From positions 372,001 to 436,000 of the forward strand of contig NZ_CP060034.1 in assembly GCF_023208195.1 (NCBI RefSeq): a stretch of 64,000 nt of DNA. The letters are read 5' to 3'. This document shows, piece by piece, positions 47,847 through 51,510 of the stretch. A program made the position numbers and the translations under genes. The number at the start of each line of letters is the position of its first letter. Within the stretch, counting starts at the first letter, position 1. Origin of the DNA: Nocardioides sp. InS609-2. GTDB lineage: Bacteria; Actinomycetota; Actinomycetes; Propionibacteriales; Nocardioidaceae. The notes under the pieces were generated by a model. It worked only from the letters and a program-made list of their open reading frames with translations. It was not told the DNA's origin and did no database searches.

Positions 47847-48455
47847 TCAGTCCTGGATGAGCGCCTCGAGCTGGGCGATCGACGCAGCAGTGTCCTCATG
47901 CAGTACGCCGTGCCAGCCGGCCGCCCGCGACGCCTCGACGTGCGGCGCGTGGTCGTCGAGGAACGCGATCTCCTCGGGTTGCACGCCCAGCCGTCGCGCC
48001 GTCAGCTCGTAGATCGCCGGGTCGGGCTTGGCCAGCCCGACCTCGTGGGAGTAGACGATGTCGTCGGTGATGTCCTCGAAGCCGTACAAGCGCTCGGCCT
48101 CACGTGCGCCCGGTGCGGAGTTGCTGAGGATGCCAACGGTGAGGCCGCGGTCGCGCAGCCCGGCGAACCAGTCGTACAACGGCTGGTCAAGCGTGCCGAC
48201 GTACCATCGCCAGAAGTCGGTCAACAGCTCGCCGGCCTGCGCATCACTCAGACAAAGCTCGGTCTGCCAGTGGGAGCGGACCTCGGACTCCGAGACCCGG
48301 CCCGTCATACCGTCGCCGGGCAGCGCCCGGACGCACACCTCGAACGAGTCGGGTGCGAACCCGTGGCGCGCCAGGAACGGCGCCGGGAAGACGCTGTCGT
48401 CGACGACCTCGAGCACCGAGCCGATGTCGAGGACGACTGCCCGCACCGGGCTCAC
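47847..48455 (-). CDS. HAD-superfamily hydrolase
   Basis: A 202-aa HAD protein: motif I is AVVLDIGSVLE, where the usual second Asp (DxD) is Gly, which can reduce phosphatase activity. Motif II is GILSNSAP, motif III has the Lys in GLAKPDPAIYEL, and motif IV is AFLDDHAPHVEAS. It starts at GTG 48455, overlapping the ADH gene by 4 nt. Confidence 0.86.
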   Translation of the reverse strand: MSPVRAVVLDIGSVLEVVDDSVFPAPFLARHGFAPDSFEVCVRALPGDGMTGRVSESEVRSHWQTELCLSDAQAGELLTDFWRWYVGTLDQPLYDWFAGLRDRGLTVGILSNSAPGAREAERLYGFEDITDDIVYSHEVGLAKPDPAIYELTARRLGVQPEEIAFLDDHAPHVEASRAAGWHGVLHEDTAASIAQLEALIQD

Positions 48456-49471
48456 GGGAGAAGCATGACCTTGACCGCGCGCCGCTCATCCATGTCGCGG
48501 TAGCCGTCGGCCACCTCGTCGAGCGAGCGCACCGAGTCGAAGACCAGGCCGGGGTTGATCGAACCGTCGAGCACCTTCGGCAGCAGCACGTCGAGGTAGG
48601 CGCGCACCGGTGCGACACCGCCGAAGAGGCCGACGTTCTTCTGGAACATCCGGCGCACAGGCAGTTCCACGCCGTGCGGCACTCCGACGAACCCGACGCG
48701 GGACCCGGGGCGGGCGATGGCGAACGCGGTCTGCATCGACTGGTCGGTGCCCACGCACTCGAGCACCGCGTCGGCGCCGACGCCCTCGGTGATCTCGAGG
48801 ATCGCCGCCTCGCCCTCCTGGCCGCGCTCCGCGACGATGTGGGTGGCGCCGAAGGCGGTGGCGATCTTCTGGCGGGACTCGTGGCGCGACATGGCGATGA
48901 CCTTCTCGGCGCCCATCATCGAAGCGGCGAGCACACCGCACAGGCCGACGGCGCCGTCACCGACGACCACGGCGGTGCCGCCGCGTCGTACGCCGGCGGA
49001 CACGGCCGCGTGCCAGCCGGTCGGCATCACGTCGGAGAGCGAGAGCAGCGACTTGAGCAGGTCCTCGTCGTCCCCGGGCGCCTCGGCCTTGAACATGGTG
49101 CCCTCGGCCTGGGTGACCAGGGAGTACTCGGCCTGACCGCTGACGGTCCAGCCCTGGTTCTCGCAGGCCGAGGTGATGCCGGCCCGGCAGTGGGCGCAGG
49201 TGTTGTCGCTGTGGCAGAAAGGCACGACTACGAAGTCGCCGGGCATGAACGACGTCACCGCCGACCCGACCTCCTCGACGACACCGACGCACTCGTGGCC
49301 GATCGTGGACCCGGCCTCGATGGGGTTCTCGCCCCGGTAGGGCCACAGATCGGAGCCGCAGATGCACCCCGCCGTGACCTTGATGACGGCATCGGTGGGG
49401 GCGCCGACGGACGGCGTCTCGAGGTCGGTCAGGCGGATGTCACGGGCAGCGTGGATGGTCGTGGCTCGCAT
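48452..49471 (-). CDS. Zinc-dependent alcohol dehydrogenase-like protein
   Basis: A 339-aa MDR enzyme. The catalytic zinc ligands are visible in AGCICGSDLWPYRG and TIGHECVG. The structural zinc loop is reduced: FCHSDNTCAHCRAG with C, C and a later C (SACENQ). The NAD-binding motif is VVVGDGAVGLCGVLAA. The substrate is unknown. Its start is 64 bp from the palindrome in front of the HTH-MurA gene, so that site might influence this gene too. Confidence 0.88.
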   Translation of the reverse strand: MRATTIHAARDIRLTDLETPSVGAPTDAVIKVTAGCICGSDLWPYRGENPIEAGSTIGHECVGVVEEVGSAVTSFMPGDFVVVPFCHSDNTCAHCRAGITSACENQGWTVSGQAEYSLVTQAEGTMFKAEAPGDDEDLLKSLLSLSDVMPTGWHAAVSAGVRRGGTAVVVGDGAVGLCGVLAASMMGAEKVIAMSRHESRQKIATAFGATHIVAERGQEGEAAILEITEGVGADAVLECVGTDQSMQTAFAIARPGSRVGFVGVPHGVELPVRRMFQKNVGLFGGVAPVRAYLDVLLPKVLDGSINPGLVFDSVRSLDEVADGYRDMDERRAVKVMLLP

Positions 49472-49534
49472 CCGTCGATCCTTGCACGGGGCGTGGGTAC
49501 GCCGACATCGCGGCCGGGCGTGCCGATCTTGCTC

Positions 49535-49552
49535 TATCTCATATCTGAGATA
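49535..49552. promoter_or_regulatory. Palindrome in front of the HTH-MurA gene, probable operator
   Basis: TATCTCATATCTGAGATA is a perfect inverted repeat (7-bp arms TATCTCA and TGAGATA around TATC), 11 bp upstream of the ATG at 49564. Its position over the likely -10 region and the HTH domain in the gene suggest autoregulation. Confidence 0.6.
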
Positions 49553-49563
49553 CCTTGACCGGC

Positions 49564-51102
49564 ATGGCTGATCTCCTTCAACGCGACTACCTGGGCCGCA
49601 TCGGCAACCTGATCCGCGACGCCCGCAAGCACCGCGGTCTCACCCAGGCCCAGCTCGCCGACCTGCTGTCCACCTCGCAGAGCGCCATCAACCGCATCGA
49701 GAAGGGTCATCAGAACCTTTCCCTCGAGATGCTGGCGCGCATCGGAGCGGCCCTCGACTCCGAGATCGTCGCCCTGGGCGCCGGTCCGACCCACCTGCGC
49801 GTCACCGGGCCCACCACACTGTCGGGCAGCATCGAGGTGAAGACGTCCAAGAACGCCGGCGTCGCCCTGCTCTGCGCCTCCCTGCTCAACCGCGGCAAGA
49901 CGACGTTGCGCAAGGTCGCCCGCATCGAGGAGGTCAACCGGCTGCTCGAGGTGCTTGCCTCGCTCGGCGTGCAGACCCGCTGGCTCAACGAGCAGAACGA
50001 CCTCGAGATCATCCCGCCGGCCGAGTTCGACCTGACCCACATCGACGAGGCCGCTGCGCGTCGTACTCGCTCGGTCATCATGTTCCTCGGCCCGCTGCTA
50101 CACCGTGCCGACACCTTTGACCTGCCGTACGCCGGCGGCTGCGACCTCGGCACCCGCACCGTCGAGCCGCACATGGCTGCGCTGCGTCCGTTCGGTCTGG
50201 AGATCAAGGCCACCGACGGCGCTTACCACGCCACCGTCAACCGGGCCATCGAGCCGCGGCGTCCGATCGTGCTTACCGAGCGCGGTGACACCGTCACCGA
50301 GAACGCGCTGATGGCCGCCGCCCTGCACCCCGGCACGACCGTGATCCGCAACGCGTCGTCCAACTACATGGTCCAGGACCTGTGCTTCTACCTGCAGAAG
50401 CTCGGCGTCGAGGTCGAGGGCATCGGCAGCACCACCTTGACCGTCACCGGCCGCGAGAGGGTCGACGTCGACGTCGACTACGCCCCCAGCGAGGACCCCA
50501 TCGAGGCGATGTCGCTGCTGGCCGCCGCAATCGTCACCAAGTCGTCGATCACGATCACCCGGGTGCCGATCGAATTTCTCGAGATCGAGCTGGCGCTGCT
50601 CGAGGAGATGGGCTTCAAGTACCACCGCACCGAGGAGTACGTCGCCCTCAACGCTCACACCCGCCTGGTCGACATCACCACGCTGCCGTCAGACCTGCGC
50701 GCGCCGCTCGACAAGATCCACCCGATGCCGTTCCCGGGTCTCAACATCGACAACCTGCCGTTCTTCGCCGTCATCGCGGCTGTCGCCGACGGTCAGACCC
50801 TGCTGCACGACTGGGTCTACGAGAACCGCGCGATTTATCTCGTCGACCTCAACAAGCTCGGCGGCAACGTCAAGCTGCTCGACCCGCACCGGGTGATGAT
50901 CGAGGGCCCGACGCACTTCAGCGGCACCGAGATGATGTGTCCGCCGGCCCTGCGCCCAGCCGTGGTCCTGCTGCTCGCGATGCTTGCAGCGAAGGGCACG
51001 TCCGTGCTGCGCTCGACGTACGTCATCTCCCGTGGCTACGAGGACCTCGCCGAGCGGCTGAACCTGCTCGGCGCCAATATCGAGACGTTCAGGGATATCT
51101 GA
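49564..51102 (+). CDS. HTH (XRE) domain fused to a MurA-type enolpyruvyl transferase
   Basis: A 512-aa protein. Residues about 13-68 form an XRE/Cro helix-turn-helix (LIRDARKHRGLTQAQLADLL; STSQSAINRIEKGHQNLSLE). Residues about 78-510 form a full UDP-GlcNAc enolpyruvyl transferase fold with KTSKNAGVALL (Lys96/Asn97 pair) and the active-site loop PYAGGCDLGTRTVEPH with Cys193, matching MurA Cys115. It could be a MurA paralogue with built-in control, or a regulator using the old enzyme as sensor. The ATG at 49564 is chosen over TTG 49555. Confidence 0.9.
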   Translation: MADLLQRDYLGRIGNLIRDARKHRGLTQAQLADLLSTSQSAINRIEKGHQNLSLEMLARIGAALDSEIVALGAGPTHLRVTGPTTLSGSIEVKTSKNAGVALLCASLLNRGKTTLRKVARIEEVNRLLEVLASLGVQTRWLNEQNDLEIIPPAEFDLTHIDEAAARRTRSVIMFLGPLLHRADTFDLPYAGGCDLGTRTVEPHMAALRPFGLEIKATDGAYHATVNRAIEPRRPIVLTERGDTVTENALMAAALHPGTTVIRNASSNYMVQDLCFYLQKLGVEVEGIGSTTLTVTGRERVDVDVDYAPSEDPIEAMSLLAAAIVTKSSITITRVPIEFLEIELALLEEMGFKYHRTEEYVALNAHTRLVDITTLPSDLRAPLDKIHPMPFPGLNIDNLPFFAVIAAVADGQTLLHDWVYENRAIYLVDLNKLGGNVKLLDPHRVMIEGPTHFSGTEMMCPPALRPAVVLLLAMLAAKGTSVLRSTYVISRGYEDLAERLNLLGANIETFRDI

Positions 51103-51112
51103 CCGCGGGCTT

Positions 51113-51140
51113 AGGAATCCCCGGTCGACCGGGGATTCCT
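51113..51140 (+). terminator. Perfect palindrome after the HTH-MurA gene
   Basis: Two 14-nt arms (AGGAATCCCCGGTC and its exact complement) form a 28-bp palindrome 10 bp past the stop codon. It is probably a terminator, although no T-run follows. Further inverted repeats continue to 51192. Confidence 0.7.
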
Positions 51141-51142
51141 GA

Positions 51143-51192
51143 ACTTGTCAGGCAATGCACGGGCCGACAAGTTCAGGAAATGCCTGACAAGT
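51143..51192. repeat. Overlapping inverted repeats with ACTTGTC motifs
   Basis: ACTTGTCAGGCA (51143-51154) pairs perfectly with TGCCTGACAAGT (51181-51192), while GAACTTGTC (51141-51149) can instead pair with GACAAGTTC (51166-51174). Two mutually exclusive hairpins are possible. Confidence 0.7.
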
Positions 51193-51249
51193 CGTGGCTC
51201 CCCCGCGTCGACGCCCGCTGCGCTGGCCAAACGACGAGCGAGTCAGCCA

Positions 51250-51510
51250 CTAGTTGAACAGCGTCTCCACCCACGCCCTCGCCCGCTTCGCGGCGGCCGG
51301 GGGCGCGATCATGTCGGGGGTGATCCGGGGCAGGGGCGTGGTGTGCTGGGCGGAGTTGCGGTGCCAGTCGGACTCGGCCTCGGCCAGGGTGCCGAGATCG
51401 GCACGATCGAGGAAGACGCCGTGCCCCTCGGGGCACTGGCTGACCTGGGTCGCTCCGACAGGGCGCTCCACCATCTCGTTGCCACATCGAGGGCAGGTCA
51501 TGGATTCCAT
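51250..51510 (-). CDS. TFIIB-type zinc-ribbon protein
   Basis: An 86-aa protein with a small zinc ribbon: MTCPRCGNEMVERPVG supplies the first CxxC, and SQCPEGHGVFLDRADLGTL the second Cys plus a His. This matches the zf-TFIIB-type bacterial family. The C-terminus is helical. ATGs at 51510 and 51501 are both possible. Function is unknown. Confidence 0.8.
   Translation of the reverse strand: MESMTCPRCGNEMVERPVGATQVSQCPEGHGVFLDRADLGTLAEAESDWHRNSAQHTTPLPRITPDMIAPPAAAKRARAWVETLFN

Follow-up and report, generated by a model that had tools for sequence, protein, structure and literature searches.

An HTH-MurA fusion in Nocardioides sp. InS609-2 with a conserved operator in its own promoter, a candidate self-regulating cell-wall enzyme

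The analysis of the window, i.e., the whole stretch of 64,000 nucleotides from the soil actinobacterium Nocardioides sp. InS609-2, revealed a gene in which an N-terminal HTH domain is joined to an enolpyruvyl transferase of the MurA type, together with an operator and a predicted promoter directly upstream (Table 1). The original prediction of a fusion within one gene was borne out: the ORF listing gave an uninterrupted reading frame from the ATG to the stop codon, and Pfam assigned residues 17-68 to HTH_3 and 80-499 to EPSP_synthase. A frameshift or two separate genes are ruled out by this single intact ORF. Position 49535, with which the original prediction opens, is the first base of the operator, the start codon being the ATG at 49564. 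This ATG is favoured over the TTG nearby because in 103 of 125 loci the first in-frame start codon lies 10-12 nt past the operator.

Table 1. Features of the HTH-MurA locus, in positions of the window.
Feature	Position	Strand	Remarks
Possible -35, TTGCTC	49529..49534	+	weak; 16-nt spacer; TTGnnn at spacer 16 in 27/125 loci
Operator TATCTCATATCTGAGATA (TATCTCA-TATC-TGAGATA)	49535..49552	.	18 bp; phylogenetic footprint
Predicted -10, TACCTT (TAnnnT type)	49551..49556	+	overlaps the last TA of the operator
Alternative start TTG	49555	+	possible, less likely than ATG 49564
HTH-MurA fusion gene	49564..51102	+	ORF; 512 aa; ATG start, stop at 51102
HTH domain, HipB/Cro type	49600..49767	+	residues 13-68; Pfam and NCBIfam
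Recognition helix and following turn QSAINRIEKGHQN	49678..49716	+	residues 39-51
MurA (EPSP synthase-type) domain	49801..51060	+	residues 80-499; PF00275, E 1.3e-47
Lys96-Asn97	49849..49854	+	invariant in 112/112 fusions and 18/18 canonical MurAs
Cys193, active-site Cys	50140..50142	+	Cys in 112/112 fusions
Two strong adjacent hairpins	51103..51197	+	after the stop codon; -53.7 kcal/mol, z -5.0

In the model comparison the HTH was nearest to HipB/C-protein-type repressors, and its best model was TIGR03070 (Y4mF/HipB-like antitoxins), with 59.5 bits, under the cut-off of 71.65. The protein passed the cut-off of the NCBIfam MurA subfamily NF006873 (327.2 vs 297 bits) and scored 315 bits with the stricter MurA equivalog TIGR01072, below a cut-off of 392.7 that 4 of 14 control genomes missed as well. 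The nearest named homologue was from Nocardioides, at 93%. Around the gene, a zinc alcohol dehydrogenase-like gene (48452-49471) is divergent to the fusion, its start lying 63 bp from the operator. The hairpins after the stop codon lack a U-run, and no terminator was called there by the terminator scan; a T-less (tail-less) terminator is possible. The Rfam scan of 49300-51400 matched no known RNA.

The operator had been described as a perfect 18-bp palindrome 11 bp before the ATG; length and distance were correct, but its perfection was not, as a mismatch in one central pair leaves 8 of 9 dyad pairs symmetric. A lone site in the window is not decisive, because shuffled windows hold 0.44 sites at ≤3 mismatches by expectation and such a site turns up in 33 of 100 shuffles, so that conservation decides. 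Upstream of fusion genes the consensus was TATCTCA-N4-TGAG(A/T)TA, scoring above the null in 73/73 loci of the first set and in 35/40 more diverse loci, and in 108 of 113 loci with a leave-one-out matrix. Among 20 added loci of family f71, 17 passed the operator threshold, and with the f71 loci and locus L047 included the operator exceeded 9.15 bits in 125 of 134 fusion loci (leave-one-out). This threshold corresponds approximately to the highest score among 2260 shuffled upstream sequences (9.14), the same threshold being applied in the 134-locus scan to longer stretches than in the null; over 1017 coding pieces the maximum was 0.5 bits. The operator was likewise found in 80 of 80 named loci, a count that is not an independent test, because these loci were scored with the matrix from the first set and several genomes are common to both sets. 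The conservation of the palindrome upstream of HTH-MurA orthologues, which had been put forward as a check, was therefore found in both of these overlapping sets. Column information stayed at or below 0.20 bits between -30 and -10, rose weakly at the -35, climbed to 1.17-2.93 bits in 16 of the 18 positions of the operator, and was high again at T +4 and the start codon; the operator is thus kept across many families while the flanking bases vary. Control of the divergent alcohol dehydrogenase was rejected as its main function, since this gene adjoins the fusion in only 40/74 and 29/80 loci and the operator persists where it is absent.

The operator fills the spacer between the possible -35 and the predicted -10, and its last TA opens the latter. 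A T at +4 after the operator, giving TAnnnT, was present in 119 of 125 loci. The promoter scan, whose model is E. coli-type, found no promoter. Given the short distance from operator to start codon, the message is predicted to be leaderless. As for the mode of action, the N-terminal HipB/Cro-like HTH, presumably as a dimer, would bind the 18-bp operator between -35 and -10 of the murA promoter; the dimer on the spacer site would block RNA polymerase, and the blocked promoter would hold the MurA level by negative feedback. The resemblance of the HTH to HipB-type repressors and the position of the operator between -35 and -10 both argue for an autorepressing MurA. Alternatively, the fused HTH could bind the operator and activate the gene, or hold the enzyme at the DNA for another purpose. 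The sign of regulation is beyond the reach of computation, and some regulators act from the -35/-10 spacer; however, with the spacer filled and the predicted -10 overlapped in nearly all of the loci, the site occupies a usual place for repressors, which makes activation or tethering unlikely.

Regarding the specificity of the operator, the own genome contained one site within 2 mismatches, namely the operator at the fusion gene, and with one site in the whole genome a regulon in this organism was rejected. At least one site at ≤2 mismatches occurred, among the matches listed, in 65 of 67 fusion genomes, those without being G431, in which the HTH signature is lost, and G356, which has a half-site. 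Such sites are not always at murA, as the two in G653 lie elsewhere, and in eight genomes of family f72 no site was found within 100 kb of the canonical murA among the matches listed. Several fusion genomes carried 2-6 sites, where the reversed pattern gave 0-2. One further site at 1 or 2 mismatches was present in a few Streptomyces-like genomes; there may be a small regulon in Streptomyces-like or multi-site genomes. The 2-mismatch level alone is weakly specific, because 34 of 61 control genomes without the fusion have such sites; the matches listed for these 61 genomes included no exact site and four at 1 mismatch. Additionally, a second palindrome, TATCTCGATGTCGAGATA, was observed beside the murA site in 16/16 Streptomyces-like genomes, 0.4-5 kb from the fusion gene. 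At L277:1550 it is situated just upstream of a divergent aconitase gene, and it may be an aconitase operator.

Within the recognition helix and the adjoining turn, Q39, A41, R44, E46, G48, Q50, and N51 were invariant in 125/125 loci with an operator. The trio Q39-A41-R44, a signature defined after inspection of the data, was missing in all eight operator-less loci (L104, L105, L110, L182, L183, L184, L119, and L047), L104 retaining R44 alone; in a ninth locus, L112, the trio and a half-site were kept. When the stricter string TSQSA was tabulated against the operator, both were present in 112 rows, the operator only in 13, the string only in 1, and neither in 8 (Fisher p 8e-7, with related rows). 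The MurA-domain tree, composed of 82 fusion rows and 6 canonical ones, and with an unsure root because the canonical branches are abnormally long, contained four operator changes among the fusions: three with the trio, none against, and one, L112, with the trio unchanged. A sign test on these four independent operator losses gave p 0.25. Operator loss thus appears to go with loss of the recognition-helix signature in the aligned sequences, in a clean pattern of few independent events. Among the 120 relatives of L110 listed, 14 kept the enzyme with no HTH detected by Pfam (P0247, P0248, P0250, P0253-P0256, P0258, P0259, P0265, P0269, P0271, P0273, and P0297), which suggests HTH decay.

These data also bear on whether the operator is owned by a separate, stand-alone regulator, the fused HTH being a relic or a protein-interaction module. 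The support for binding of the operator by the fusion is computational, and the enzyme can persist where the HTH decays, as in the eight loci and the 14 L110 relatives with PF00275 only. In contrast, the own genome has a single site, the site stays with the fusion gene even though the neighbours differ (see the alcohol dehydrogenase counts above), and the HTH signature and the operator were lost together in three of the four events, so that a foreign owner of the site seems quite improbable. The claim that the fusion binds its own promoter is therefore one that computation supports well, through the conserved operator, the sole close genomic site, and the joint loss with the HTH signature.

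Turning to the enzyme half, an AlphaFold2 model built from a 34-row alignment had a mean pLDDT of 87.5 and a pTM of 0.81. It contained five N-terminal helices (2-23, 28-34, 39-46, 54-64, and 67-72); residues 66-72 were of low confidence and the Cys loop 193-195 was uncertain, the HTH and Cys-loop regions being less confident than the rest. The first 43 Foldseek rows were all MurA structures or MurA-containing models, with TM 0.86-0.93 by target length, and the MurA fold spans the whole enzyme domain according to both analyses. In an alignment of 112 fusion proteins, with one truncated row left out, K96, N97, R169, C193, and R198 were invariant in every row, and the Cys193 and Lys96-Asn97 of the original prediction are accordingly present at the numbers given there. 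H203, D396, R422, R464, and R490 were invariant in two further alignments, A1 (26 members) and A2 (34 members), and 18 canonical MurAs of the phylum share K96, N97, R169, R198, H203, D396, R422, R464, and R490. At the position of Cys193 these canonical proteins have Asp in 14 cases and Cys in 4. Residue 462 is Ala in the window protein and in every fusion of alignments A1 and A2 (26 and 34), and 17 of the 18 canonical MurAs have Asp there and one Glu; we take this position to be Asp369 of E. coli MurA. Residues 240-244 (RGDTV) also differ from the canonical proteins. Altered kinetics or specificity are possible, because Ala462 replaces Asp and the TIGR01072 score is below its cut-off.

Besides the fusion, no MurA-like gene was found in the 4.52-Mb one-contig genome of Nocardioides sp. 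InS609-2. A protein search of this genome returned the fusion itself and two HTH-only matches, and PF00275 identified two genes, the fusion and AroA, the latter passing the AroA model TIGR01356 (386.8 vs 287.25 bits); MurB is present. Within the genus the fusion occurred in 59/59 genomes (in G031 as a contig-end fragment), with no second MurA-length match in any of them and one partial match of 26% (E 6e-4, G026). Within the order it occurred in 117/117 genomes, at most the best 12 candidates being scored per genome, and on this basis a single match at E≤1e-15 was obtained in 34 of 37 f1 genomes and 34 of 35 f71 genomes. The 37 genomes of f72, which from the named loci we infer to be Kribbella, had at least 2 matches each, the second ones among the matches listed being canonical MurAs of about 31% identity. 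Across the class (345 genomes), fusions were found in f1, f71, f3, f86, some of f84, f6, f2 and f98, and in single f101, f104, and f105 genomes; families such as f4 and f89 had canonical MurA only, and canonical MurA coexists with the fusion in f72 and f3. Named carriers include Nocardioides, Aeromicrobium, Marmoricola, Kribbella, Actinopolymorpha, Brachybacterium, Streptomyces, Arthrobacter, Pseudarthrobacter, Micropruina, and Propioniciclava. A mobile gene was considered and rejected: all 40 phage records matched were below 60% identity, the 10 phage matches listed all began at query residue 60 or later so that none of those 10 covers the HTH, and the 2 of 130 plasmid-collection records above 60% were both very large replicons (2.8 and 11.9 Mb). 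As a side observation, two fusions of different families, L047 (G197:C1:1261849-1263365) and L139 (G674:C1:2095122-2096653), are broken near the same residue (~377-390), either by a recurrent frameshift or by sequencing error.

The fusion is hence predicted to be a catalytic MurA, a reading supported by the conserved residues, the modelled fold, and its being the only MurA-like gene. The plausibility of catalysis in the original prediction thus stands, with Ala462 as what seems the main ground for caution. If the enzyme domain were no longer MurA, it could be a sensor, or an enolpyruvyl transferase with a different specificity. Ala462 in place of a near-invariant Asp, the divergent residues 240-244, and the missed TIGR01072 cut-off would speak for this; NikO, of solved structure, has the same fold with a changed substrate. 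This loss of MurA function is very unlikely, given that the own genome has MurB and that no MurA-like gene besides the fusion was found in it, and given the single match in nearly all f1 and f71 genomes; it is less easily countered in f72 and f3, where a canonical MurA coexists. Finally, a chance palindrome, to which a third of the shuffled windows lend some colour, has a negligible probability and is set aside because the operator is conserved far above both null maxima.

Taken together, the HTH-MurA fusion is likely an active MurA that represses its own gene, providing negative feedback on the enzyme level; from the conserved operator in its own promoter, the enzyme probably sets its own production. 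A further step, which we put forward tentatively and would not favour over its opposite, is that the catalytic cycle of MurA gates the DNA switch, the UDP-GlcNAc-bound (closed) and free (open) forms differing in operator affinity. If so, the first committed cell-wall enzyme would be a sensor matching its own synthesis to the precursor supply, and murA transcription would respond directly to fosfomycin and other MurA-trapping drugs. A coupling of transcription to UDP-GlcNAc or PEP levels, as in the original prediction, is likewise hypothetical. The fusion extends over much of the actinobacteria, among them Streptomyces and Arthrobacter relatives, and over genomes in which no other MurA was found. 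It offers a compact testable system with a single protein and a single 18-bp site, whose ligands and inhibitor are known. Searches of openly licensed papers gave no description of HTH-MurA, its self-regulation, or its operator. Public annotation already labels some family members as HTH-containing, so the architecture itself is visible in databases, and what is new here is the conserved operator and its joint loss with the HTH signature.

When compared to canonical MurA (NF006873/TIGR01072), the fusion shares the fold, the length, the K-N pair, the active-site Cys, and the Arg and Asp residues, and differs in its N-terminal HTH, Ala462 for Asp, the TIGR01072 miss, and an identity of ~30%. BirA and PutA, among other enzymes, repress genes of the pathway in which they act. 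Like them, the fusion carries a DNA-binding domain and a metabolic enzyme on one polypeptide, and its own-promoter operator is conserved and specific, as in a self-repressing enzyme of this kind; in contrast, the enzyme, the pathway, and the DNA-binding family are others, and ligand gating is for the fusion a tentative proposal. With the HipB/Y4mF-type antitoxin repressors (TIGR03070) it has the HTH family in common. In the passages of PMC3376134 and PMC3920265, E. coli HipB is an autoregulator binding TATCC-N8-GGATA, and the site described there has the same five-base-arm N8 spacing as TATCT-N8-AGATA of the fusion and 4/5 of its arm bases. The pattern TATC(C/T)N8(A/G)GATA fits the site in the window and 51/125 loci in all. 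Unlike the HipB systems, the fusion has an enzyme attached, one operator instead of four, and a score under the TIGR03070 cut-off, and no HipA-type gene was present among the five ORFs scanned around it.

Another relevant case is SCO5998, which passages of PMC12161575 and PMC8346170 describe as MurA2, one of two in S. coelicolor, located beside the aconitase SCO5999; a DmdR1 site predicted for it and a promoter dependent on SigB are also reported there, with no mention of an HTH or of self-regulation. In Streptomyces sp. HM190 (L277) the fusion also adjoins a divergent aconitase gene, and because of this shared neighbourhood SCO5998 is probably a member of the HTH-MurA family. The printed SigB promoter string did not occur in 26 Streptomyces-range loci, flanks of up to 3 kb included. 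Regarding control of this first committed step, according to PMC4946905 phosphorylated CwlM activates MurA in mycobacteria, and the ReoM pathway (PMC7286690) is another control of the step by a separate protein. The likeness lies in the control placed on MurA; the difference is that CwlM acts by enzyme activation, whereas in the fusion the control would be transcriptional. Other bacteria thus use separate proteins, while here MurA itself appears to contain its controller.
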